Positions 33,862 to 54,800 of a stretch of DNA of 64,000 bases are shown here, piece by piece (the first letter of the stretch is position 1; every line of letters begins with the position of its first letter). Source of the stretch: Tilletia caries (Eukaryota > Basidiomycota > Exobasidiomycetes > Tilletiales > Tilletiaceae). Location of the stretch: contig JALUTQ010000038.1 in assembly GCA_032718865.1 (NCBI GenBank), positions 372,001-436,000 of the forward strand. The letters are read 5' to 3'. Position numbers and translations under genes: made by a program. The notes below the pieces were generated by a model. The model had not been told where the DNA came from and ran no database searches. It saw nothing but the letters and a program-made list of their open reading frames with translations.

Positions 33862-34162
33862 TAGCCTCATATTATCAGGCGTGCGTTGATGACCCTTGTC
33901 GGGTCCGACAGCAAATTGCAAGTGAGACTTTGCGAAGCTGTGCGATAGCACGCCTGATCTCAGATTACTAATGGGCACCTTGAACTGCAACCGCAACCCA
34001 ACTCAGTGAAATCAGCGCTCGCCCAGCCCCGTCTGAGTGGTAAACCTTATCTAAAGTCCCCCTCCCCCCTCACCATCCTCACTCTCGTCACCACTACAAG
34101 CACGCACGCAGTCACACACCCACACTGTACCATATCCGTGCGCTCCTCAGCTTGTTCTCGTA

Positions 34163-34496: not shown

Positions 34497-35941
34497 ATGA
34501 AATCTTTAACCCCTGCAAAGAAAGCTCATATTGCGGCTGAGCTGCGGAAGGGCAAGTCGAGCCGGGCCGTGGCACGTCAATGTGGGGTCAGCAAGACGAC
34601 TGTGAACCAGTGCTCCGCACGAAGGCCCGCCTGAGGCCCGGACCTTCGGGCTCACTTTTTCTCGAAATGGCCACTTTTATCGGGCTCAAAAACAGTGCCG
34701 AGAAGATTGGGCCAGGCCCGAATCTTTGCAGGCGGCCCGCTAGGCCCGCTAAGTTTGTCTTCATATGAGGTATGGCACGTGATCGAATGTACTGGAACCT
34801 TTGGGGCTGGGTGGCACGTGCATAGCCGTTCCGAAGCCGTTCACACGTGGGAAATGAGCATTCCCTGGCTATGTAATCAAGCCCGGTGGCCCGCCTGGTT
34901 GGCATCGGGCCTGGTGCAAAATAGGTGCGATCTTAGCGGGCCAGACTCCAAAGGGGTCAAGCCCGGAAAAGCCCGCCCGGAGCCCGCCTGGAGGCCCGCT
35001 GCGGAGCACTGCTGTGAACTCCCTGAGATCACAGCATAAAGATATACCGCATGCAAAGCCGAAAGGCAGGCCGCCAAAACTCGACAATCGGGACAAATCC
35101 ACTCTCAAGCGTGCGATAAAGACGGGAAAAGCAAACAATGCTCGGCAGGCTCTAAAAGAGCTGCAGGCAGCGAAGGGCCTCAAAGTCTCTGTCTGGACGG
35201 CACGGCGGGCGCTGCGCTCTGTGGGAATGCACCCTGTCGTCAAGAAAAAAAGAGACCCTTGATGACCCGGCGGTACAAACAAAATCGGCTCCGCTTTGCC
35301 CTCAAGCACGTTGAGTGGACCCCGGAAGACTGGGCACGCGTCATATGGACGGACGAGACTAAGATCAACCGCATCTCTAGTGATGGGCGAGAGGTGGTCT
35401 GGGTCGAGAACGGGTCGGGCCTCAGCGAACGGACGATTACCCCCACCGTCAAGTTTGGGGGCGGCAACATCATGGTGTGGGGCTGCATGACATGGTCTGG
35501 CCGGGCAAAATAGAGCTCGTTCAAGGCCGCATGAACGCTCAGCAATACACCGAGATCCTTACGAAAAACCTCGTTCCCGTTATCGATGCGATGTCACTGC
35601 TCCCAGACTCTCCGGCGCGCGACAAGATCATCCTGCAGCAGGATAACGATCCGAAACACACCGCAAAATTGGCAAAAGCATGGTTCAAGGCCCACAATAT
35701 CACCCCCCTCGAGTGGCCTGCAAACAGTCCGGACCTTAATCCGATCGAACACCTATGGAACACCCTCAAGCGACGCCTTCACACCTATTCGACCCAACCC
35801 AAGGGCGCCCAAGAGCTGTGGGAGAGGGTTCAGGTAGAATGGGAACGACTTCCGACTGATACGTGCAAGGGGCTGATCGAGAGCATGCCTAGGAGGTGTG
35901 CAGCGGTCATTAGGGCCAAAGGCGGCAACACAAAGTATTAG
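34497..35941 (+). pseudogene. Tc1/mariner (DD34E) transposase, interrupted
   Basis: The N-terminal helix-turn-helix (MKSLTPAKKAHIAAELRKGK, AVARQCGVSKTTVN) is cut at 34607 by the 404-bp MITE and resumes at 35020 (SLRSQHKDIPHAKPKGRPPK). The catalytic domain has VIWTDETKI, QQDNDPKHTA and NSPDLNPIEHLW, with 34 residues between the second Asp and the Glu. Two one-base frame breaks occur, near 35253 in an A run and near 35505 next to GGCCGGG, so it is unlikely to be active. The N-terminal DNA-binding half would recognise the 31-bp ends. A possible intron precedes the start. Confidence 0.9.
34608..35011 (+). mobile_element. hAT-type MITE inserted in the transposase
   Basis: A 404-bp non-coding element with terminal inverted repeats CAGTGCTCCGCA at both ends, flanked by an 8-bp duplication CTGTGAAC (34600-34607, 35012-35019). 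The 8-bp duplication and CAGTG ends fit the hAT superfamily. Precise removal of the element and one duplication restores the transposase frame (KTTVN/SLRSQ). Rich in GGCCCG blocks in both orientations. Confidence 0.9.
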
Positions 35942-36032
35942 GTTTGTTGGTGTTTCTCTCTGGCTGTGGGTCTTGGTGCAAAATGGCCGAATGAACAAAC
36001 AGACCCTTTTCTACTTTTCTACGTCCTCGGTC

Positions 36033-36330
36033 TGTGATAGATGGCTCCACGTGGCCACTATCTTATCTTTCCTCCTCACTATCTCTTATCCCTTCCTCTC
36101 ACACATTCCGCATAGCAACATCACTCTCACCTCCACTTTCCCACACTATTCTCTCTCGACCTCATCCTTTCTCTTTCTTCTCCACTTTCCTCTCTCCTTT
36201 CTCTCGGCCGAGATCTTTCTCTTTCCTGTCACCTTCGCATCGCACTCCCCACTGTACTTAGTTCTCCACATCGAACTACATACCTCTTGCCTTTGCCTTT
36301 TACTAGTAGCTGCACCAGCTATCTAGTACA
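36033..36330 (+). repeat. LTR A, copy 1
   Basis: 298 bp, TGTGATAG to CTAGTACA. Pyrimidine-rich. Followed directly by TGGTGATGAGAG, a 12-base remnant of the tRNA-complementary primer site. Confidence 0.92.
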
Positions 36331-36449
36331 TGGTGATGAGAGAAGGTTCTTTCCGCAACGCCTAATCAGCTGCGCGTACGTGCCCTTGATCGCTCTCCCT
36401 CCCTCACTTCACCCTTCCTTTCGTCCTTTATCCCTTTTCAGCTTCTACC

Positions 36450-37877
36450 ATGACATTCTTCTACCATCTCCATCTCATTCCGCTTTCCGGCAAGATTGAG
36501 GGGCCCACGTCATCTTGGCCCGCCACCGAGGAAGGCTACTTCGACATCGGCCCATCAACCAGCTGCGCCGCTCCTTCGCTTTCTGCGTTTTCTTCTTCCC
36601 GACTTCGCATCTCGTTCTCCGACGGCATCTTCACGCTCGTCGACAGTGGCCAGGTCGGCACTGTTCGGATCAACGGTCGCGTTCTTCCTTCCAATACCCA
36701 CCATACCCTTCTTCAGAACGACATCCTCGAGTTCGCGCGCGGCAATGGATCCAGTTTCGACCCAAAATTGTCCTGCCGCGTCGACCTCATATCCTCTTCT
36801 TCTGCCGTCCTTCAGCTACCTGGCCCATACACGTTCACGGCGTCAAAGCGCGGCCCAGCATACGCCCGTGAGTACGACGCGGGCCAGAGTTTCGACGCTA
36901 TGGCTCGGCATCACGGCCTTTTTCCTGCCTTGTCAAACCCTCGGCTCTCCGCATTCACCTTCAGCTCCTGCACGATAACAACCCAACATCTCCTTGGTCC
37001 CTCGCGTTATGACCCCACCCCATCGACATCAGGACCCACACTTGCTTCGACAGTCACGTTCCGATACGGTGACTTTGTTGACATGTCCAAGACGTCCAAG
37101 CTCGATTCGCGTGACCCCTCCTCGACCTCGCCACGCACAGCCCTCAGCCCGAACCCGCACTCTAGCCCAACAACGAAATCATCAACAGATAGTCGCATAT
37201 CTGACTCCCCTACTTCAAATGCTGCTGCGTCGACTGCCGATGACGGACCATCGCAAGCTGCGGAGCATCGCGCCGTCAGATTGCATAAGAAGGCGAAGGA
37301 CGGCGATGACACTTTGATTGCGGACGACAGTTTCCCGCACTGTGCCACAGTGGGCTCCGATTCGGTCGCGACCGGCGCATCCGCCCGTTTCACCACTTCG
37401 GGACTGACATCGGTACTTGTCCCAGACTCCCCGCCGGCGAATGTCTTGTCACCTCAAGAAGATCTGGAACCGGAGCAGGAGCAGGCCGCAGGCACTCTGT
37501 CGCCAAACTTTGACGGCTCCCGGGCTTCTGGCTGCACCCTAGTCAAGCCTGACAGCGGTGGCAGTATGACGGAACCGGCGCAATCTGCAGCTTCTCGACC
37601 CAGCATCACTTCGGCACTCAACAAGTCCCAGGTTGTGGACCACGTTGCAGTGCATTCGGAGGATAACACGGCAGCAGCCGCGGGATTGATCTCAGCACAG
37701 GTGGCATTGGAGCGAATACAACGGGCGTGGACAGCTACGCAAGGATTGAACCACACTCCTCGGAATGGAAATGCCCGGCTCTCATCCGCCTTGACTGCGC
37801 TTTCCCACGTCGGGGCAGCTTGGCGCTCGGCTCGAAGCGCGCTGCTACATGCTACTGTCTTCCACATCCGCCCATGA
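36450..37877 (+). CDS. FHA-like ORF of body1, unit 1 (intact)
   Basis: A 475-aa uninterrupted frame. Residues about 25-95 fit a forkhead-associated (FHA) phosphopeptide-binding fold: YFDIGPSTSC for the first strand, SSRLRISFSDGIFTLVDSG for the Ser-Arg and core strands, then GTVRINGRVL and LLQNDILEFARG. These parallel the SRxH, GTxxNG and LxxGDxIxxG stretches of FHA domains. The second half is Ser/Thr/Ala-rich, probably disordered, with a C-terminal helix-like motif (SAQVALERIQRAWTA) also found in the body2 protein. CTTTTCAG, 16-9 bases before the ATG, looks like a splice acceptor. FHA assignment is inference from pattern; function unknown. Confidence 0.65.
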   Translation: MTFFYHLHLIPLSGKIEGPTSSWPATEEGYFDIGPSTSCAAPSLSAFSSSRLRISFSDGIFTLVDSGQVGTVRINGRVLPSNTHHTLLQNDILEFARGNGSSFDPKLSCRVDLISSSSAVLQLPGPYTFTASKRGPAYAREYDAGQSFDAMARHHGLFPALSNPRLSAFTFSSCTITTQHLLGPSRYDPTPSTSGPTLASTVTFRYGDFVDMSKTSKLDSRDPSSTSPRTALSPNPHSSPTTKSSTDSRISDSPTSNAAASTADDGPSQAAEHRAVRLHKKAKDGDDTLIADDSFPHCATVGSDSVATGASARFTTSGLTSVLVPDSPPANVLSPQEDLEPEQEQAAGTLSPNFDGSRASGCTLVKPDSGGSMTEPAQSAASRPSITSALNKSQVVDHVAVHSEDNTAAAAGLISAQVALERIQRAWTATQGLNHTPRNGNARLSSALTALSHVGAAWRSARSALLHATVFHIRP

Positions 37878-38292
37878 CCCCGTACCTACCTTTTCTACGC
37901 CATCGAGTCACCCGGCGGCGAGTACGATCAAGCAAGACCGATGTTCTCCGGAGCGGAATACACTCGGCTGCGAAAAATATCACGCCTACCGTCTTTCGGC
38001 ATCCCCTGCACGATAATCCCCCTTCGGCCAATGACATCCACCAATCACAGCTACCACCGTCGAGACCCAATCCCCTCCAGTCCATTCATCATCACATCGC
38101 TCATTTTGTCACCGACTTCGGTATTCCTTTTTTACCCTTCCGGCCTGTGGCATACCCCATCCATCTCCCGCATGCATCCTTCACGCCTTCTTTCCCGTCC
38201 TCACATGCGCTTCCTCCTCACATGATCCTTTGACGCACCCATATTGCAGCACGACTCGGGACAGTCGTCTTTTTTGGGGGTGGCCGGTGGCA

Positions 38293-38512
38293 TGTGCTGG
38301 ATGGGACCACGTGGCGCATCCATCTTATCTTATCTCCTTTCCTTTCTCTTTCTTCTCCACTTTCCTCTCTCCTTTCTCTCGGCCGAGATCTTTCTCTTTC
38401 CTGTCACCTTCGCATCGCACTTCCCACTGGGCACTGTACTTAGCTCTCGACATCGAACTACATACCTCTTGCCTTTGCCTTTTACTAGTAGCTGCACCAG
38501 CTATCTAGTACA
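38293..38512 (+). repeat. LTR B, copy 1
   Basis: 220 bp, TGTGCTGGATGGGACCACG to CTAGTACA. Lacks about 80 bp relative to LTR A in the left-middle part. Followed at once by the long tRNA-complementary site. Confidence 0.9.
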
Positions 38513-39620
38513 TGGTGATGAGAGTGGGATTCGAACCCACGCCCTTTCGGACTACGCTGCCTTCCGATTCCCGAAGTGTCGTCACTTCCGCGCTTGGTCG
38601 CGCGGGATACACCCTCACCGATCTCGACTCGCGCCCTCCGACAGCGGCCCCTCCCGTGTCGCGTCCGCTCAAGTGCCAGCGGGAGCTCATTGGCTCCTAC
38701 GACGGCGAGCCCACCCGCTTGGAGCGGTTCCTCAGTCGGGTTGCCGATATGGCTCGCTCCAACTCCGATCCCGCGTGGGAACCTGCGGTCGTGGTGGCGA
38801 TTCCCCAGGCGCTGGAAGGGATCGCGGCTCGCTGGCATGCAGGCCTGCCAACGACGACTGTGCGCGGCCTCCGCACGGTGGAGGATTACGCGCGTCTGAT
38901 GCGTCGCGCCTTTGCTGTAAACCGGGCGCAGCTTCGTCAGGACGCGCATGATCGCCGGTGGCAAGAGTCTCAGGAGTCTGGAATGGCTTACCTGTTTGAC
39001 AAGGTCCAGCTCTTGCGTTACGCGTTCGGCGATTCGTACACGGAGAGCGTTCTGGTGCAAGAGGTGGCCGACAAGTTGCCGCCCTCCATGTATGCGTACA
39101 TTCGCTTGCCGGAGGAAGGTGCCGTCCTCGATGATCTTCAGGACGCCATCATCCGTTGGGAGCCAGTCTGGAGGAAGGTGCACAACATTCCTCTCCTCGA
39201 CTCGAGCTCGATGTCGTCGGACAAGGTCGTCAAAACCCCGTCAGCTCCGGTTTCTGCCCCGATCCGGCAGGCTCCGACGTCCGCGCCCCCCTCCTCGTCC
39301 TCCCCGTGCGGTGCATCACACCGTTCCTCCCGCATCGGTGACGGCCCCGGGCCCGCAGACCTCCTTGCCGGCGACATACGATCCCGCTCGGATCGTGCCG
39401 GCCGCGAATGGGCTGCCGCGCATGTACCGCCGGCCCAACTCCAATAAGGTGTTGCGGCTGGGTTGGAACTGCAATCGCTGTGGGGGAGAGCATTTTGACT
39501 TTGAGCACGAACATCTGCTCCAAGCCGGCCAAATCAACACACTCACGGTCGCCGACTATCCGGAGATCGATGAGGCTGATCTTGGCCTGGCCCCTTTTTG
39601 AGCGTCCGCAACGACGGTAA
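38512..39620 (+). pseudogene. Gag-like ORF of body2, unit 1
   Basis: Open from the ATG straddling the LTR/primer-site junction. The retroviral-type gag core is seen at GEPTRLERFLSRVADMAR, PQALEGIAARWHAGLP, YARLMRRAFAVNRAQLR and DKLPPSMYAYIRLP. Near the C-terminus is a short Cys/His cluster WNCNRCGGEHFDFEHEH that may bind zinc. Run-length differences shift the frame near 39293 and 39600 relative to unit 2; combining the two copies suggests an original protein of about 360 aa ending near 39620. True translation start uncertain, as the first codons lie in tRNA-like sequence. Confidence 0.65.
38513..38619 (-). other. Primer binding site extended over a tRNA-like sequence, copy 1
   Basis: Read on the minus strand this 107-base stretch ends in CACCA and has a perfect T arm (GTGGG, TTCGAAT, CCCAC). 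A variable-arm hairpin (GTCC, GAAA, GGGC) suggests a class II (Ser or Leu) tRNA. Two more perfect hairpins follow, and the far end GGTGAGG can pair with TCTCATC as a 7-bp acceptor stem with two G-U pairs. The CCA, absent from nuclear tRNA genes, abuts the LTR end exactly, so this was copied from a mature tRNA primer or is complementary to one. The gag frame reads through it, giving the VGFEPT peptide typical of antisense tRNA. Confidence 0.7.
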
Positions 39621-39826
39621 ACTAGTGGCGGGCACCGACGTCGAACGGGCCCGCCCGCCTCCTCACCCTCCCGATGCGCCCGTCGTACATGCTGCGGTCG
39701 TGGAGAGCTTGGAAGTGACGGAGACGGAGTCTGATTCAGTCTCATTTGTCCGTGACGACGTTAAACTATCGACCAATACTCACTGGTCCATCCCACATCC
39801 TTTCTTCTACCTTTTCAGACTACGCC

Positions 39827-41425
39827 ATGATATTCTTCTGTCATCTTCACCTCATTCCTCTCGCTCGCGCTGCCGAGGGTCCCACGTCGTCTTGGCCTGC
39901 CGCCGAACAGGGCCACTTCGACATCGGCCCGTCAACCAGCTGCAACGACCCTTTTTCTTTCTACGTTTACGTCTTCCCACCCTCGCATCACATTCTCCGA
40001 CGGCATCTTCACACTGCTCGACAGCGGCAAAGTCAGCACCATTCGTATCAACGGGCGTGCTCTCCCCCCTTCAAACCGAGCAGGCTCTCTTACAGAACGA
40101 CATCATCGAGTTCGCACGCGACAGCAAATCCGAATTCAACCCAAACATGTCATGCCGGGTCGACCTCATCACTTCCACCTCAGCAAACCTCCAGCTGCCT
40201 GGACCCTACACCTTCACTTCATCCAAGCGCGGCCCTACATATGCGCGCGAACAGGACACTTGGCGGAGCATTGACGACATGGCTCGACATCACGGCTTTT
40301 CTTCCTTCAAATCCGCCCCGCGAATCGCTGCATTCACCTTCAGCTCATGCACGGTAACAACGCGCCGTCTTTTTCCTCTCTTCCGCGACGATCCCGTCCC
40401 ATCGACCTCAGGTCCGACGCTCGCTTCCTCTGTCACTTTTTAGATACGGGGATTTTGTCGACGCATTTAACGCCTCCACACCCAACGTCGAAGATTCCCC
40501 CTCGTCCGAGTCTTCCGAGCACCTCCAAACACACAGAAGTCTCGACGACATTGCTGTCACTGGCACAAGTGAATCACCCGGTGACCGCACCACTTGTTCG
40601 CCCGCTCCATCAGATGCTCTACCAATCACGATTACCGGCAAACGGCGGGCGTCGGACCATCGCGCTGCGGATTCCGAGACGGAGGAGGTGAACAGCGAGG
40701 AATCTCCGATCACGTATGAGGGCACCAATGACAGGATCTCGGGGTGCTTCGATTCAATCCGCCAAGCCGGATCCACGAGTACTGCCACTTCGGTACTCAC
40801 ATCGGTATCCGCCACCGACACACTGACATCGACGCGGCGGCCGACTCAAGCAGCTAAACCCGGCAGTTTCCCAGGCACGACGGACTCGGTAAACCGGTCG
40901 CTGCTTACATCTGCGCCGGGGGTTTCGCGCCTTCCTGTTTCGCCTTCGTCCCTGTCTACATGGGTGGGATCTGCTGTCACTGCTATGTCCAGCATAAGTT
41001 CGGCGTGGGTTCGACTCCGAAGCGACATCTTACGCGACGTGCCCAGATCTTGCTCCGCTTCGACACCCTTATCCACCCCTGCAGTGACAAATGGATATCC
41101 AGGAGGCTCGCTTGCTTCCGCCGACATCGCCCTTCGGCAGGTCAAGTCCGCGTGGCTGGACTCTGTTGTTTCTCGACAGGCACCGACTGTTCCACACCAG
41201 GCGCGTCCCAGTACGCTGGGGATGATGCCCTTCCATTCCAGTACCCCGTCTCCATCCACGCGTTGCGCCTTCAGTCCAAATTCAGCTCCTTCAATGCCCA
41301 GACCGATCACGGATATCAAGCAGAGCGGCATGTGTCCTCACGCACAACCCGTACATGCTGTTTCGCTGTCCTCGCCATCCTTTTTCAACTCCATTTCCTC
41401 TGCCAGTCCCTCCTCCGTCCTATAA
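39827..41425 (+). pseudogene. FHA-like ORF of body2, unit 1, frame-broken
   Basis: Homologous to the body1 protein: MIFFCHLHLIPL at the start, HFDIGPSTSC, RITFSDGIFTLLDSGKVSTIRINGRAL, ALLQNDIIEFARD, then GPYTFTSSKRGPTYARE. Frame changes near 39953, 40072 and 40440 lie at runs of T or C. The last 245 codons (40688-41425) are open and contain SADIALRQVKSAWLDSV, the counterpart of the body1 C-terminal motif. CTTTTCAG again precedes the ATG. Divergence from body1 is large in nucleotide sequence but the domain plan is kept. Confidence 0.6.
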
Positions 41426-41688
41426 CGACGCTTCCACACCTATGCGCCCCTTGCCATGCTCCACCGCCGGCGTGATCGCCTTGGCAAATCCAACTTCAAC
41501 GCCAAATCCACGGTTTCAGCTTCTCCGACCACTTCCCCACACACAGGCAGCAACACACCACTCGCAGCTACTTGCCCTTCTCCCGGCTTCGTATCCTCTC
41601 TCGCTCCTTCCTCTGTTGATCTGCTGATCCCCATCGACTGCATTGCGGGTTTTTTCTACGACTCGGGGCAGTCGCTTTTGGGGCGGCA

Positions 41689-41986
41689 TGTGATAGATGG
41701 CTCCACGTGGCCACTATCTTATCTTTCCTCCTCACTATCTCTTATCCCTTCCTCTCACACATTCCGCATAGCAACATCACTCTCACCTCCACTTTCCCAC
41801 ACTATTCTCTCTCGACCTCATCCTTTCTCTTTCTTCTCCACTTTCCTCTCTCCTTTCTCTCGGCCGAGATCTTTCTCTTTCCTGTCACCTTCGCATCGCA
41901 CTCCCCACTGTACTTAGTTCTCCACATCGAACTACATACCTCTTGCCTTTGCCTTTTACTAGTAGCTGCACCAGCTATCTAGTACA
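41689..41986 (+). repeat. LTR A, copy 2 (internal)
   Basis: 298 bp, apparently identical to copies 1 and 3. Preceded by TTTTGGGGCGGCA and followed by TGGTGATGAGAG. Confidence 0.92.
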
Positions 41987-42106
41987 TGGTGATGAGAGAA
42001 GGTTCTTTCCGCAACGCCTAATCAGCTGCGCGTACGTGCCCTTGATCGCTCTCCCTCCCTCACTTCACCCTTCCTTTCGTCCTTTATCCCTTTTTCAGCT
42101 TCTACC

Positions 42107-43535
42107 ATGACATTCTTCTACCATCTCCATCTCATTCCGCTTTCCGGCAAGATTGAGGGGCCCACGTCATCTTGGCCCGCCACCGAGGAAGGCTACTTCG
42201 ACATCGGCCCATCAACCAGCTGCGCCGCTCCTTCGCTTTCTGCGTTTTCTTCTTCCCGACTTCGCATCTCGTTCTCCGACGGCATCTTCACGCTCGTCGA
42301 CAGTGGCCAGGTCGGCACTGTTCGGATCAACGGTCGCGTTCTTCCTTCCAATACCCACCATACCCTTCTTCAGAACGACATCCTCGAGTTCGCGCGCGGC
42401 AATGGATCCAGTTTCGACCCAAAATTGTCCTGCCGCGTCGACCTCATATCCTCTTCTTCTGCCGTCCTTCAGCTACCTGGCCCATACACGTTCACGGCGT
42501 CAAAGCGCGGCCCAGCATACGCCCGTGAGTACGACGCGGGCCAGAGTTTCGACGCTATGGCTCGGCATCACGGCCTTTTTCCTGCCTTGTCAAACCCTCG
42601 GCTCTCCGCATTCACCTTCAGCTCCTGCACGATAACAACCCAACATCTCCTTGGTCCCTCGCGTTATGACCCCACCCCATCGACATCAGGACCCACACTT
42701 GCTTCGACAGTCACGTTCCGATACGGTGACTTTGTTGACATGTCCAAGACGTCCAAGCTCGATTCGCGTGACCCCCTCCTCGACCTCGCCACGCACAGCC
42801 CTCAGCCCGAACCCGCACTCTAGCCCAACAACGAAATCATCAACAGATAGTCGCATATCTGACTCCCCTACTTCAAATGCTGCTGCGTCGACTGCCGATG
42901 ACGGACCATCGCAAGCTGCGGAGCATCGCGCCGTCAGATTGCATAAGAAGGCGAAGGACGGCGATGACACTTTGATTGCGGACGACAGTTTCCCGCACTG
43001 TGCCACAGTGGGCTCCGATTCGGTCGCGACCGGCGCATCCGCCCGTTTCACCACTTCGGGACTGACATCGGTACTTGTCCCAGACTCCCCGCCGGCGAAT
43101 GTCTTGTCACCTCAAGAAGATCTGGAACCGGAGCAGGAGCAGGCCGCAGGCACTCTGTCGCCAAACTTTGACGGCTCCCGGGCTTCTGGCTGCACCCTAG
43201 TCAAGCCTGACAGCGGTGGCAGTATGACGGAACCGGCGCAATCTGCAGCTTCTCGACCCAGCATCACTTCGGCACTCAACAAGTCCCAGGTTGTGGACCA
43301 CGTTGCAGTGCATTCGGAGGATAACACGGCAGCAGCCGCGGGATTGATCTCAGCACAGGTGGCATTGGAGCGAATACAACGGGCGTGGACAGCTACGCAA
43401 GGATTGAACCACACTCCTCGGAATGGAAATGCCCGGCTCTCATCCGCCTTGACTGCGCTTTCCCACGTCGGGGCAGCTTGGCGCTCGGCTCGAAGCGCGC
43501 TGCTACATGCTACTGTCTTCCACATCCGCCCATGA
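42107..43535 (+). pseudogene. FHA-like ORF of body1, unit 2, one-base break
   Basis: Same as the intact 475-aa frame of unit 1 except for one extra C in a C run near 42773, which splits it into 42107-42823 and a continuation to 43535. Either a sequence error or a recent lesion. Confidence 0.7.
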
Positions 43536-43949
43536 CCCCGTACCTACCTTTTCTACGCCATCGAGTCACCCGGCGGCGAGTACGATCAAGCAAGACCGAT
43601 GTTCTCCGGAGCGGAATACACTCGGCTGCGAAAATATCACGCCTACCGTCTTTCGGCATCCCCTGCACGATAATCCCCCTTCGGCCAATGACATCCACCA
43701 ATCACAGCTACCACCGTCGAGACCCAATCCCCTCCAGTCCATTCATCATCACATCGCTCATTTTGTCACCGACTTCGGTATTCCTTTTTACCCTTCCGGC
43801 CTGTGGCATACCCCATCCATCTCCCGCATGCATCCTTCACGCCTTCTTTTCCCGTCCTCACATGCGCTTCCTCCTCACATGATCCTTTGACGCACCCATA
43901 TTGCAGCACGACTCGGGACAGTCGTCTTTTTTGGGGGTGGCCGGTGGCA

Positions 43950-44169
43950 TGTGCTGGATGGGACCACGTGGCGCATCCATCTTATCTTATCTCCTTTCCT
44001 TTCTCTTTCTTCTCCACTTTCCTCTCTCCTTTCTCTCGGCCGAGATCTTTCTCTTTCCTGTCACCTTCGCATCGCACTTCCCACTGGGCACTGTACTTAG
44101 CTCTCGACATCGAACTACATACCTCTTGCCTTTGCCTTTTACTAGTAGCTGCACCAGCTATCTAGTACA
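43950..44169 (+). repeat. LTR B, copy 2
   Basis: 220 bp, apparently identical to copy 1, in the second tandem unit. Confidence 0.9.
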
Positions 44170-45280
44170 TGGTGATGAGAGTGGGATTCGAACCCACGCC
44201 CTTTCGGACTACGCTGCCTTCCGATTCCCGAAGTGTCGTCACTTCCGCGCTTGGTCGCGCGGGATACACCCTCACCGATCTCGACTCGCGCCCTCCGACA
44301 GCGGCCCCTCCCGTGTCGCGTCCGCTCAAGTGCCAGCGGGAGCTCATTGGCTCCTACGACGGCGAGCCCACCCGCTTGGAGCGGTTCCTCAGTCGGGTTG
44401 CCGATATGGCTCGCTCCAACTCCGATCCCGCGTGGGAACCTGCGGTCGTGGTGGCGATTCCCCAGGCGCTGGAAGGGATCGCGGCTCGCTGGCATGCAGG
44501 CCTGCCAACGACGACTGTGCGCGGCCTCCGCACGGTGGAGGATTACGCGCGTCTGATGCGTCGCGCCTTTGCTGTAAACCGGGCGCAGCTTCGTCAGGAC
44601 GCGCATGATCGCCGGTGGCAAGAGTCTCAGGAGTCTGGAATGGCTTACCTGTTTGACAAGGTCCAGCTCTTGCGTTACGCGTTCGGCGATTCGTACACGG
44701 AGAGCGTTCTGGTGCAAGAGGTGGCCGACAAGTTGCCGCCCTCCATGTATGCGTACATTCGCTTGCCGGAGGAAGGTGCCGTCCTCGATGATCTTCAGGA
44801 CGCCATCATCCGTTGGGAGCCAGTCTGGAGGAAGGTGCACAACATTCCTCTCCTCGACTCGAGCTCGATGTCGTCGGACAAGGTCGTCAAAACCCCGTCA
44901 GCTCCGGTTTCTGCCCCGATCCGGCAGGCTCCGACGTCCGCGCCCCCTCCTCGTCCTCCCCGTGCGGTGCATCACACCGTTCCTCCCGCATCGGTGACGG
45001 CCCCGGGCCCGCAGACCTCCTTGCCGGCGACATACGATCCCGCTCGGATCGTGCCGGCCGCGAATGGGCTGCCGCGCATGTACCGCCGGCCCAACTCCAA
45101 TAAGGTGTTGCGGCTGGGTTGGAACTGCAATCGCTGTGGGGGGGAGAGCATTTTGACTTTGAGCACGAACATCTGCTCCAAGCCGGCCAAATCAACACAC
45201 TCACGGTCGCCGACTATCCGGAGATCGATGAGGCTGATCTTGGCCTGGCCCCTTTTTTTGAGCGTCCGCAACGACGGTAA
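44169..45280 (+). pseudogene. Gag-like ORF of body2, unit 2
   Basis: Same gag-like protein as at 38512. Here the Pro-rich linker (SAPPPRPPRAVHHTVPPASV) stays in frame, but seven G instead of five near 45137-45143 shifts the frame at the CNRCGG cluster. An extra pair of T near 45251-45257 lets the original frame continue to ERPQRR and stop at 45280. The single long frame from 44169 to 46103 is a product of these shifts. Confidence 0.65.
44170..44276 (-). other. Primer binding site extended over a tRNA-like sequence, copy 2
   Basis: Same as the copy at 38513, in the second tandem unit; no difference seen by eye. Confidence 0.7.
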
Positions 45281-45486
45281 ACTAGTGGCGGGCACCGACG
45301 TCGAACGGGCCCGCCCGCCTCCTCACCCTCCCGATGCGCCCGTCGTACATGCTGCGGTCGTGGAGAGCTTGGAAGTGACGGAGACGGAGTCTGATTCAGT
45401 CTCATTTGTCCGTGACGACGTTAAACTATCGACCAATACTCACTGGTCCATCCCACATCCTTTCTTCTACCTTTTCAGACTACGCC

Positions 45487-47085
45487 ATGATATTCTTCTG
45501 TCATCTTCACCTCATTCCTCTCGCTCGCGCTGCCGAGGGTCCCACGTCGTCTTGGCCTGCCGCCGAACAGGGCCACTTCGACATCGGCCCGTCAACCAGC
45601 TGCAACGACCCTTTTCTTTCTACGTTTACGTCTTCCCACCCTCGCATCACATTCTCCGACGGCATCTTCACACTGCTCGACAGCGGCAAAGTCAGCACCA
45701 TTCGTATCAACGGGCGTGCTCTCCCCCCTTCAAACCGAGCAGGCTCTCTTACAGAACGACATCATCGAGTTCGCACGCGACAGCAAATCCGAATTCAACC
45801 CAAACATGTCATGCCGGGTCGACCTCATCACTTCCACCTCAGCAAACCTCCAGCTGCCTGGACCCTACACCTTCACTTCATCCAAGCGCGGCCCTACATA
45901 TGCGCGCGAACAGGACACTTGGCGGAGCATTGACGACATGGCTCGACATCACGGCTTTTTCTTCCTTCAAATCCGCCCCGCGAATCGCTGCATTCACCTT
46001 CAGCTCATGCACGGTAACAACGCGCCGTCTTTTTCCTCTCTTCCGCGACGATCCCGTCCCATCGACCTCAGGTCCGACGCTCGCTTCCTCTGTCACCTTT
46101 TAGATACGGGGATTTTGTCGACGCATTTAACGCCTCCACACCCAACGTCGAAGATTCCCCCTCGTCCGAGTCTTCCGAGCACCTCCAAACACACAGAAGT
46201 CTCGACGACATTGCTGTCACTGGCACAAGTGAATCACCCGGTGACCGCACCACTTGTTCGCCCGCTCCATCAGATGCTCTACCAATCACGATTACCGGCA
46301 AACGGCGGGCGTCGGACCATCGCGCTGCGGATTCCGAGACGGAGGAGGTGAACAGCGAGGAATCTCCGATCACGTATGAGGGCACCAATGACAGGATCTC
46401 GGGGTGCTTCGATTCAATCCGCCAAGCCGGATCCACGAGTACTGCCACTTCGGTACTCACATCGGTATCCGCCACCGACACACTGACATCGACGCGGCGG
46501 CCGACTCAAGCAGCTAAACCCGGCAGTTTCCCAGGCACGACGGACTCGGTAAACCGGTCGCTGCTTACATCTGCGCCGGGGGTTTCGCGCCTTCCTGTTT
46601 CGCCTTCGTCCCTGTCTACATGGGTGGGATCTGCTGTCACTGCTATGTCCAGCATAAGTTCGGCGTGGGTTCGACTCCGAAGCGACATCTTACGCGACGT
46701 GCCCAGATCTTGCTCCGCTTCGACACCCTTATCCACCCCTGCAGTGACAAATGGATATCCAGGAGGCTCGCTTGCTTCCGCCGACATCGCCCTTCGGCAG
46801 GTCAAGTCCGCGTGGCTGGACTCTGTTGTTTCTCGACAGGCACCGACTGTTCCACACCAGGCGCGTCCCAGTACGCTGGGGATGATGCCCTTCCATTCCA
46901 GTACCCCGTCTCCATCCACGCGTTGCGCCTTCAGTCCAAATTCAGCTCCTTCAATGCCCAGACCGATCACGGATATCAAGCAGAGCGGCATGTGTCCTCA
47001 CGCACAACCCGTACATGCTGTTTCGCTGTCCTCGCCATCCTTTTTCAACTCCATTTCCTCTGCCAGTCCCTCCTCCGTCCTATAA
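45487..47085 (+). pseudogene. FHA-like ORF of body2, unit 2, frame-broken
   Basis: As in unit 1 but with the T run near 45613 in the favourable length, so HFDIGPSTSC to GKVSTIRINGRAL reads through. A six-C run near 45722 still breaks the frame before LLQNDIIEFARD. The C-terminal part 46348-47085 is open and matches unit 1. Confidence 0.6.
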
Positions 47086-47353
47086 CGACGCTTCCACACC
47101 TATGCGCCCCTTGCCATGCTCCACCGCCGGCGTGATCGCCTTGGCAAATCCAACTTCAACGCCAAATCCACGGTTTCAGCTTCTCCGACCACTTCCCCAC
47201 ACACAGGCAGCAACACACCACTCGCAGCTACTTGCCCTTCTCCCGGCTTCGTATCCTCTCTCGCTCCTTCCTCTGTTGATCTGCTGATCCCCATCGACTG
47301 CATTGCGGGTTTTTTTCTACGACTCGGGGCAGTCGCTTTTTTTTGGGGCGGCA

Positions 47354-47651
47354 TGTGATAGATGGCTCCACGTGGCCACTATCTTATCTTTCCTCCTCAC
47401 TATCTCTTATCCCTTCCTCTCACACATTCCGCATAGCAACATCACTCTCACCTCCACTTTCCCACACTATTCTCTCTCGACCTCATCCTTTCTCTTTCTT
47501 CTCCACTTTCCTCTCTCCTTTCTCTCGGCCGAGATCTTTCTCTTTCCTGTCACCTTCGCATCGCACTCCCCACTGTACTTAGTTCTCCACATCGAACTAC
47601 ATACCTCTTGCCTTTGCCTTTTACTAGTAGCTGCACCAGCTATCTAGTACA
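47354..47651 (+). repeat. LTR A, copy 3 (right end)
   Basis: 298 bp ending at the right target duplication CGGTC. No primer site follows, as expected for a 3' LTR. Confidence 0.92.
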
Positions 47652-47776
47652 CGGTCGAATTCAACAGCTGGAAATGCCAGCATAGAACCTTGATACGTTG
47701 CTTTCCTCGGCCCCAATAGTTGGCTATGGGTTTGTTATTTTGGAGTGGTCTTTCTCGTGGTGTTTATGGTTTACTT

Positions 47777-47807: not shown

Positions 47808-48190
47808 TACAAGCTGACACACAAGCTGACAGATCGTGGTGCGTAACTTTCTCTCTTGGTGCTCGCTATCTGGAGGTCAGTCAGTCAGTGAAAGAAGTAT
47901 GTATTAGATTACTTAGGGAGTGCCCTGCGAGGTGTGCGCTTGCTGCTGGGAATGTGGGAGCTCGATGTTGATGGGTGTGAGCGCGATCCATGGTCAGTTT
48001 GTGCGTGTGGTGTCGGTCGAAATTTCACTAAGTTGGGGTTCGGTTGCAGTTCAAGGTGCCCATTAGTGATCTGCGCTCAGGCTGCCTTCGGCAGGTCCTC
48101 CGGAAGCCTCTAATGCAATTTGAAGCTCGGTCACGTGACGCGACACACGACACACGCCCTGCCACTGGCAGCCTGAGTTTCTGAGGCTAG

Positions 48191-51863: not shown

Positions 51864-54800
51864 CTATCCCGAGCACTGAACCATCGAAGAAGTAGAAGAG
51901 GAGGAGTCAGTTCCTGCACCTGAGAAGAAGAAGAAGAAGAAGAAGAAGAAGAAGAAGAAGAAGAAGAAGAAGAAGAAGAAGAAGAAGAAGACGAAGAAGA
52001 TGAAAAATGAACTCACCATCAAGCATGCATCCTTGTTCTCCAGCGAGCACAACGCCTTGTCAGCCTCATATTGCCGTTCCCGCGCCCGTTGCTTCGCAGC
52101 CTCAAAGCCAGAGTCATTCTGTGATACCTCCGCTACTGCTGGCGAAGCTGCGGCGGCGGCGGGGGCGGTAGGAGCAGACGCAGGCGCAACAACGCTCTCG
52201 ACAGGCGCAGCAGACTGCTTCATCACCGGTGATGACTCGACCACCTTCTCCGGCTGTTCTTGCTCGACCTCGACAACGATGGCAGCTGGTACCACCGCCG
52301 ATGCTGCCGCCGCTGTTGCCAACGCAAGTGCCTTGCCGTCCTCAACCGCAAGCTGAGTCTTCAGCGCTCCCGCCTTATTCGCAGCCTTCGCAGCCGCTTG
52401 CTCCTCAGCCGAGACCGTGAACTGGATCGCATTGGCCGCAGGCCGGGTCCGGAGGTAGTACGTCCCCGTCTTCAACCCCTTCTTCCAGCCATAGAAGTGC
52501 ATGCTGGTAAGTTGGCCAAAGCTCGGCGCTTGCAGATGGATGTTCAGACTTTGGGACTGGCAGATGAAAGCGCCCCGGTCCGCGGCCATGTCAATGATGA
52601 CCTTCTGCGAGATCTCCCAGACCGTCTTGTACAGCGCCTTGATCCGGTCCGGGATCCCGGGCACATTCTGAATCGAGCCGCCATGCGCTATGATCCGGTT
52701 CTTCATCTGCTCGTTCCACAGCCCTTGCTCGACGAGCTCGCGGAGCAGCCACGGGTTGACGACTTGGAACTCGCCAGCCAGCACACGGCGGGTGTACAGG
52801 TTGCTCGTGTAAGGCTCAAAGCACTCGTTGAAGCCCAGGATCTGACTCGTCGAGGCCGTCGGCATAGGTGCGAGCAACAGCGAGTTCCGGAGACCGTGCG
52901 AGGCAATGTTGCGCTTGATCTCAGCCCAGTCCCAAAGACCGCTGGGGGTAACGCACCACATGTCGTACTGGAGCTCGCCCTTGCTGGCCGGGCAGCCCTC
53001 GTATGTCTCGTAGGTCCCGAGCTCCTTGGCAAGCTCGCACGATCGCTCAAGAGCGGCGTGGTAGATGGTCTCGAAGATCTGAATGTTGAGCTTCTTGGCC
53101 TCGGGACTGTCAAAGGCGTAGCCCATGATCATGAATGCGTCTGCGAGACCGTTGACTCCGATGCCGATGGGGCGGTGGCGCATGTTCGACTTCTTGGCCT
53201 CGGGCACAGGGTAGTAGTTCACGTCGATGATCTTGTTGAGGTTGCCACAGACGACCTTGGTGACCTCGTGAAGCTTCTTGAAGTCATATGTCCTCGTGTT
53301 GGTTTGCGAGTCGTAATGGATGTAGGTCGGCAGAGCCATACTGGCAAGGTTGCAGACAGCGACCTCGTCCGGAGCGCTGTACTCTATGATCTCCGTGCAA
53401 AGGTTAGAGTTCTTGATGGTGCCGAGGTTCTTCTGGTTCGACTTGCGGTTGGCAGCGTCCTTGTAAAGCATGAAAGGGTTGCCAGTCTCCGTCTGGGCCT
53501 CCAGAACGGCGTACCAGAGCTTCTGAGCCTTGACCGTGCGGCGAGCACGACCCTCGCGCTCGTACTTCTCGTAGAGGGCCTCGAATTCCTCACCATAGAC
53601 GTCGGCAAGACCGGGGCACTCAGCGGGGCACATGAGCGACCACTCTCCGTTCTGTTCGACTCGCTTCATGAACAAGTCGGGAATCCAAAGGGCGTAGAAG
53701 AGCTCACGGGCGCGAACCTCCTCCTTGCCGTGGTTCTTCCTGAGGTCGAGGAACTCGAAGACGTCCGAGTGCCAAGGCTCAATGTAGATGGCAAAAGCCC
53801 CCGGTCGCTTGTTGCCACCCTGGTCGACGTAGCGAGCGGTGTTGTTGAAGACTCGAAGCATGGGAACAATGCCGTTGGAGACGCCGTTGGTTCCAGCAAT
53901 GTAAGAGCCGGTGCCTCGGATGCAGTGAATGTTGAGCCCGATGCCACCGGCCGTCTTGCTGATCATGGCGCAAGTCTTGAGGGTGTCGTAGATGCCGTCG
54001 ATGGAGTCATCCTTCATCGTGACCAGGAAGCAGGATGACATCTGGGGATTGGGTGTTCCGGCATTGAAGAGGGTGGGCGAGGCGTGGGTGAAGTACTTCT
54101 CCGACATGAGGTTGTAAGTGTCGATGGCCTGGTCAATGTCCCGCCCGTGAATGCCGACGGCGACTCGCATGAGCATATGTTGCGGCCTCTCGGCGACCTT
54201 GCCGTTGATGCGCAGCAGATAAGAGCGCTCGAGAGTCTTGAAGCCGAAGTAGTTCTACGTATCGAGATCAAGGAAGGGAAAGTCAGCTTGGTGCGAGATG
54301 CAAGGTTCCAGGGCCGAAATCGATGACTCACGTAGTGGAAGTCACGCTCGAAGATGATAGCACCGTCGAGCTTGGCCTTGTTCTCCTGGATGATCTCGTA
54401 TATCTCCTCGCTGACCATGGGACTGTGCTTGTTGTTTTTGGGGTTGATGTATTCGAAGAGGTCGGTGATGACGGAGCTGAAGGTCTTCTTGGTCTCCTTG
54501 TGCAGGTTGCTGATGGCAATGCGTGCGGCGAGAACAGCGTAGTCAGGGTGTGTTGTTGTCTTGTAGGCAGCTGTCTCTGCGGCCAGGTTGTCGAGCTCGA
54601 CGGTGGTTACGCCCTCGTAGATGCCATCGATGACCTTGAGGATGAGAGAGGTGAGGATGAGGTCAGTGGCCATGATCGTGCTATAGGATGGGGATGAGAA
54701 TGCGTGCTCACCTTTCTTGTGATCTCGATCGGGTCGACGAAGTCTTTGTCAAGACCGTAACAGAGCTTGCGTATACGTGCTGTGACCTTGTCGAACTTGA

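Follow-up and report, generated by a model that had tools for sequence, protein, structure and literature searches.

Short LTR retroelements with an FHA-type reading frame in Tilletia caries: candidate satellites of Ty3/gypsy elements

Background

Among the retroelements flanked by long terminal repeats (LTRs), several non-autonomous kinds are described. The TR-GAG elements of plants are gag-only LTR retrotransposons; the LARD, TRIM and SMART elements, with a non-coding or decayed interior and no enzymes of their own, have their ends in common with an autonomous partner; and the Bs1-type elements of maize have captured genes of their host. To our knowledge, non-autonomous LTR elements are usually seen as enzyme-less parasites that encode nothing, or gag alone. 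Here we analyse an LTR array of the wheat-bunt fungus Tilletia caries, at positions 36033..47651 of a 64,000-nucleotide stretch (contig JALUTQ010000038.1, positions 372,001 to 436,000; hereafter the window), together with the family of elements to which its open reading frames (ORFs) belong. A preliminary description of the window had read the array as a single pol-less element carrying gag and a second ORF resembling an FHA domain.

The elements considered here resemble TR-GAG elements in being short, in having an LTR pair, a primer site and a 3' tract, and in carrying one ORF and no pol, but the ORF of TR-GAG elements is gag, whereas here it encodes an FHA-type domain, and the gag piece of the window comes from another element. 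Like LARD, TRIM and SMART elements they lack enzymes and have ends in common with an autonomous partner; they differ in that purifying selection maintains one protein domain across many diverged lineages. One sibling contains a host cDNA, as in the Bs1-type elements, but the FHA domain seems to be old and diversified. The account that we favour, and consider probable, is that these FHA-coding LTR elements are copied as satellites by Ty3/gypsy elements, with a docking protein taken from the host. The comparison with satellite viruses and phage satellites is an analogy: these also use foreign replication proteins and themselves keep few genes, but here we deal with retrotransposons, and packaging by a partner is presumed. 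If a large family does keep one non-gag protein under selection, it would be the retroelement counterpart of satellite viruses, and what a satellite must itself encode would become testable. The literature search, whose coverage stopped short of subscription journals and preprints, turned up no account of LTR elements that encode an FHA domain.

Results and discussion

A family of short elements with one long ORF

The genome to which the window belongs has 38.1 Mb in 40 contigs, designated below by C-numbers, while L-numbers designate the loci that were compared. The T. caries assembly described in PMC10684912, very probably this one, combines nanopore and Illumina reads.

The FHA-like protein of the window has 17 matches in this genome. 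Four of the matching loci (L012, L013, L014 and L015) are separate LTR elements of 2.4-2.6 kb, each with one long ORF of 511-555 amino acids and with LTR pairs that are 99.3-100% identical; in another copy, at C39:1833k (L004, L007), the ORF is interrupted. Similar LTRs surround far more divergent ORFs of 470-609 amino acids in L052-L055, and ORFs divided between frames in L056 and L058. Two nearly identical FHA-ORF elements are found on C21 (L086) and C7 (L087), and queries with the proteins of L077 and L078 revealed additional diverged copies. Merging the rows of four protein searches, with four rows in or beside retained places dropped, yields 39 places, a count that includes the four of the window array and four that match outside the FHA domain only. 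The genome-wide search proposed in the preliminary description thus located the FHA ORF in LTR elements of its own, without gag.

Matching 5-bp target duplications were found at 8 of 15 loci, in addition to the window array; four loci have none, and the script left three unsettled. Pfam recognised no reverse transcriptase (RT) or integrase family in eight sibling ORFs, and neither gag nor pol was seen in the FHA-ORF LTR elements of about 2.3-2.6 kb. In the window, 15 ORFs, 14 of them in the array, were scanned with Pfam for pol families, and none appeared at E 1 or better; the scan also gave one spurious dehalogenase match (E 0.0026, below cut-off). The absence of pol motifs noted earlier is confirmed at this threshold, and the ORF is not a truncated pol. 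With an LTR pair and target duplication, a primer site, a 3' purine-rich tract and no pol found, the FHA-ORF elements are non-autonomous LTR retrotransposons. Read from their sequences, they form a diverse family of short (~2.3-2.6 kb) elements of Tilletia with one long FHA-type ORF each. The family behind the array is larger than had been stated, and would consist of protein-coding satellite LTR elements.

A pol-bearing partner with the same ends

Loci L027 and L061 of C3, examined apart, are two parts of one full element, with identical LTRs (290/290), target duplication GAAAA, a gag ORF of 469 amino acids, and matches to RT, RNase H and the zinc-binding domain of integrase. The order gag, RT, RNase H, integrase fits Ty3/gypsy. 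A genome search with the window gag protein gave 127 matches, including two close copies that each have an RT match on the same strand at a distance of about 2.3 kb (C39:448435/445647 and C34:492759/489971).

The tRNA primer sites of the FHA elements and of this gypsy partner are almost the same. Their LTR ends are alike, and so is a hairpin just 5' of the 3' tract, with changes in one arm of its stem matched in the other. The hairpin is present in 21 of 23 stretches, or in 14 of 15 once the eight that were picked by means of it are removed; a strict search missed it in L053 and L079. Allowing at most one mismatch, the pattern has 126 matches in the genome, and the reversed pattern none. Of the 39 FHA-protein places, 29 have one of the listed hairpins (the first 100 of the 126) within 3 kb downstream on the same strand, against 0 of 39 in mirrored intervals of the opposite strand; in this count, a single hairpin serves two adjacent places of C7, and the hairpin was the means by which L077 and L078 had been found. 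Among the hairpin matches listed, three with one mismatch (C1:526361, C4:12823 and C17:13134) are, by eye, 2.3-2.5 kb 3' of a same-strand RT, so that pol-bearing elements also carry the hairpin.

Eight loci were selected by the hairpin, five in tandem arrays and three single. The ORFs of four of them look FHA-like (L074, L075, L077 and L078), with Pfam FHA matches below threshold for L074 and L077; those of the other four (L076, L079, L080 and L081) do not. A gag-derived origin of the ORFs of L079 and L080 was considered and found unsupported (tblastn E 0.57 and 0.056).

Hairpin units also occur in tandem at regular spacing, at C3:558179-565134 (~2318 nt), C32:812394-819207 (~2270), C22:647306-653442 (~3068 nt) and C34:817301-819582 (~2281 nt), which suggests repeated LTR-LTR recombination. 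At the primer site, where 18 nt of tRNA complement are usual, about 44 nt are present in the window (38513-38556) and in L052, and about 36 nt in L055. The long ORFs of L052 and L055 begin within this extended site, and their N-terminus, MVMRVGFEPTP, is also that of the database protein P0007.

An apparent pol-bearing element with array-type LTRs on C27 was rejected, as it turned out to be an FHA element interrupted by a different insertion. This locus (L060, C27:897500-906400) is a type III FHA element with target duplication GAAGG, and the insertion of about 6 kb contains two ORFs that, by eye, resemble a transposase (1078 amino acids) and a kinase.

The FHA-type domain

In these proteins the FHA-type domain is N-terminal, the middle is rich in Ser and Pro, and the C-terminal part has a motif of the form phi-x-R-phi-x-x-A-W-x-x-x-R. 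The predicted model of the window-type protein has modest confidence; its 50 listed Foldseek rows are all FHA-containing, one of them below E 0.001, and so are all 50 rows listed by a second structure-search method. Profile comparison with host FHA domains gave support in two of three sequence groups. Sequence matches remain below the Pfam limit: PF00498 has no match at E 1 in the 475-residue ORF of the window, and the best FHA score in the family, 13.8 bits, falls short of the gathering cut-off of 20.7, which is never reached. We predict an FHA beta-sandwich fold for the window-type protein. The earlier suggestion of an element coding an FHA-like protein, which the fold search did not refute, agrees with this prediction and with the LTR elements found genome-wide; its proposed Pfam check did not bear it out.

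In solved structures, the profile of alignment A1 retrieved nothing relevant (one HIT-protein match, E 1.4), and single-protein searches gave no match for L077 and one irrelevant match for L078. The model of the type II protein P0007 has a mean local confidence (pLDDT) of 33.6, so that for type II the FHA assignment depends on profile links. These favour it at 97% in one comparison, and at 65% (0 of 40) against the array types; on the other side, the type II profile has no match to host FHA domains and only 1.4% to type I.

Could the protein be a strongly derived Gag with a mere likeness to FHA? The ORF stands in the place of gag, 3' of the primer site, and combines an N-terminal beta domain with C-terminal helices predicted in a low-confidence model; the sub-threshold Pfam scores fit as well. 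We nevertheless judge this improbable, given the unanimous rows of both structure methods and the profile homology to host FHA in two groups. In addition, the five FHA elements tried have no similarity to the partner gag (tblastn best E 0.77-1.8).

The C-terminal motif is common to 11 of 12 proteins, compared with a mean of 0.014 and a maximum of 1 in 500 rounds of shuffling, the motif having been drawn from these same proteins. A strongly hydrophobic C-terminus resembling a tail anchor was seen in two of the 12 (L078 and L086), and the tail anchor was accordingly rejected as a family-wide feature.

Constraint on the domain

Over the N-terminal 210 codons of five elements, the ratio of non-synonymous to synonymous rates (dN/dS) ranges from 0.17 to 0.23 in nine of the ten pairs, the tenth being saturated; the least saturated pair, the window and L012, has a dN/dS of 0.211 with dS 0.96. 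In the L078 lineage, the four pairs that are only distantly related give 0.16-0.19 for the domain, at dS above 2.5. The recent pairs have few changes there: two synonymous and one non-synonymous in L078/L085, none and one in L086/L087. Outside this region the alignment is poor and the constraint weaker: the ratio is 0.52-0.85 in those five of the ten pairs for which dS is finite, and, in the L078 lineage, 0.37-0.41 in distant pairs and 1.41 in L078/L085. The domain is retained in lineages that are 13-24% identical to L077. With these ratios of about 0.2, the FHA-type domain is under purifying selection.

They also bear on the idea that the ORF is passenger cargo, a host fragment transduplicated on ordinary non-autonomous LTR elements and of no use to their mobility. 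The recent changes outside the domain do look unconstrained, some copies with near-identical LTRs have an interrupted ORF or none, and the sibling L081 carries a host cDNA. A passenger would hardly be expected, though, to conserve its domain at such divergence, to share a C-terminal motif in nearly all proteins, or to have homologues named T. indica; we hold this alternative to be unlikely.

The cargo of L081 (C4:704500-707250; LTRs 99.7% identical, target duplication CCTCC) is a piece of ATP synthase gamma (Pfam E 4.6e-25). The host gene L084 (C4:1721610-1722242) has an intron of about 69 nt that this piece lacks, a direct instance of a host mRNA captured by such an element. A second copy, 97% identical, lies at C3:281488-282095.

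Origin of the domain and loss of its phosphate contacts

Thirteen PF00498 matches were found in the genome, and six host FHA domains were compared one by one with the element domain. The best scores are those of L064 (32.5) and L062 (31.2); the others range from 12.6 to 21.8, and the maximum of 60 shuffles is 19.4. The closest solved relatives of L064 are SLMAP (1.6e-19) and Vps64 (3.1e-13; titled Far9), of a type that we take to be STRIPAK members. This SLMAP/Far9-like match is the best of the six, but its pairwise E is only 6.5e-5, with a probability of 64%; it suggests, short of proof, that the domain was captured from a STRIPAK-type host FHA protein. SLMAP has a tail anchor, which the hydrophobic C-termini of L078 and L086 recall. 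The family differs from this subgroup of PF00498 in its scores below the Pfam cut-off and in its contact residues, discussed below. We favour a host exon as the distant origin of the ORF, and the spliced cDNA in L081 offers a plausible route for such a gain.

The residues that we take to be the phosphothreonine contacts of FHA domains are Arg, Ser, His and Asn. In alignment A2, the Arg of the 'GR' site is Pro in four of eight rows, the window ORF included, Arg in two (L014 and L015), and another residue in two. The Ser/His and Asn positions are also unconserved in the alignments, while the structural Asn-Gly turn is conserved. The canonical contacts are thus not kept in the family proteins, and phosphothreonine reading is unsupported. 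The preliminary description had suggested such a reader of host kinase targets, which could link the element with signalling or chromatin of the host. Although the predicted fold, the SLMAP/Far9-type relatives and the two arginines would suit it, the loss of the contacts, with the Arg replaced in the window ORF itself, makes it doubtful; we rate it about as low as the passenger, or a shade lower.

The array as a chimera in two copies

The array lies between two copies of the target duplication CGGTC (36028..36032 and 47652..47656). Its three LTRs of 298 bp (36033..36330, 41689..41986 and 47354..47651) are identical in pairwise comparison (298/298), and identical to both LTRs of L012, an element of C30. 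The primer-binding site TGGTGATGAGAG (36331..36342), directly after the first LTR, has its complement in the 3' terminus of a tRNA identified by eye as tRNA-Leu(AAG); the matching tRNA gene is in L072, where ARAGORN labels it tRNA-???. These features, and a genuine 3' polypurine-like tract, are as previously described.

Each of the two units of 5.66 kb, all on the forward strand, consists of an LTR, a first FHA body (FHA1), a variant LTR, a tRNA complement, a gag region of 1.25 kb and a second FHA body (FHA2). In the first unit, the FHA1 ORF of 475 amino acids is intact (36450..37877), and is followed by the conserved hairpin with its 5-bp stem before the 3' tract (38252..38267), the variant LTR of about 220 nt (38293..38512), the primer site, which by reading extends over 44 nt complementary to the tRNA (38513..38556), a piece of Ty3/gypsy gag region short of a full gag (38557..39805; 99.68% identical to L027), and the FHA2 body, of L012 type (39787..41688; 99.5% identical to L012) and with an interrupted frame, near whose end a hairpin again precedes the 3' tract (41659..41674). 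The second unit has FHA1 at 42107..43535, its frame interrupted, the variant LTR at 43950..44169, the gag piece at 44214..45465 (99.76% to L027), and FHA2, also interrupted, at 45447..47353. Over its first kilobase, LTR included, FHA1 is 82.5% identical to L012.

Since the window gag is about 99.7% identical to part of an element that has pol, namely to its gag region, the array is not a pol-less element carrying its own gag. By its sequence it is a chimera in two tandem copies, made of an FHA-ORF element, a gypsy gag piece and a second FHA-ORF element. The ORF had also been said to be kept in both bodies: it is present four times, and open end to end once, in FHA1 of the first unit. Between the two units there are a single substitution and 12 runs of indels, each run in a homopolymer, so the status of the other three frames is uncertain and some interruptions may be sequencing errors.

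This pattern could raise the suspicion that the array is an assembly artefact and its likeness to FHA due to chance. The clean duplication at both ends of the whole array, the separate elements on many contigs, and the homologues among database proteins named Tilletia laevis, T. controversa and T. indica make this very improbable.

A proposed mode of mobilisation

The junction between gag and FHA2 falls, by eye, inside a stretch of 11 nt present in both parents, as expected for template switching between two RNAs; the second junction of the chimera has no such common stretch. Because of the shared primer site, LTR ends and hairpin, together with this recombinant, mobilisation by gypsy enzymes is the best reading of the data. 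The RNA of an FHA element would depend on gypsy enzymes for its packaging, copying and integration, in the manner of a satellite; template switching between co-packaged RNAs would produce the chimera of the window, and a later event its tandem duplication. The domain would have been taken from a SLMAP/Far9-like host FHA protein and would then have lost its phosphothreonine pocket, to serve as a phospho-independent docking module, either bringing its own RNA into the particles of the partner or acting at a host site. This last step is the least certain, and we propose the docking role tentatively.

Two points weigh against this scheme. The near-identical LTRs of L056, L058 and L059 surround an ORF that is interrupted or absent, which sits badly with a protein needed in cis, subject to the caveat on homopolymers, and the link between type I and type II proteins is weak, which slightly lowered our confidence. 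That the elements are true satellites in the full sense, with a STRIPAK-type FHA domain captured long ago, deprived of phosphate reading and diversified over dozens of lineages into a factor for their own mobility or for docking to the partner, all else being left to gypsy enzymes, is a possibility that we take seriously while leaning a little against it.

Surroundings of the array

A piece of DDE_3 transposase, Tc1/mariner-like, lies directly to the left of the array (35477-35941; Pfam E 1.7e-13). The array is also flanked by an inverted repeat of 101 nt, at 33912-34012 and 48022-48122, with 77% complementarity. Further to the right, on the minus strand, the ORF at 51864-54176 resembles by eye a ribonucleotide reductase; close to its end, Phe codons form a long run.

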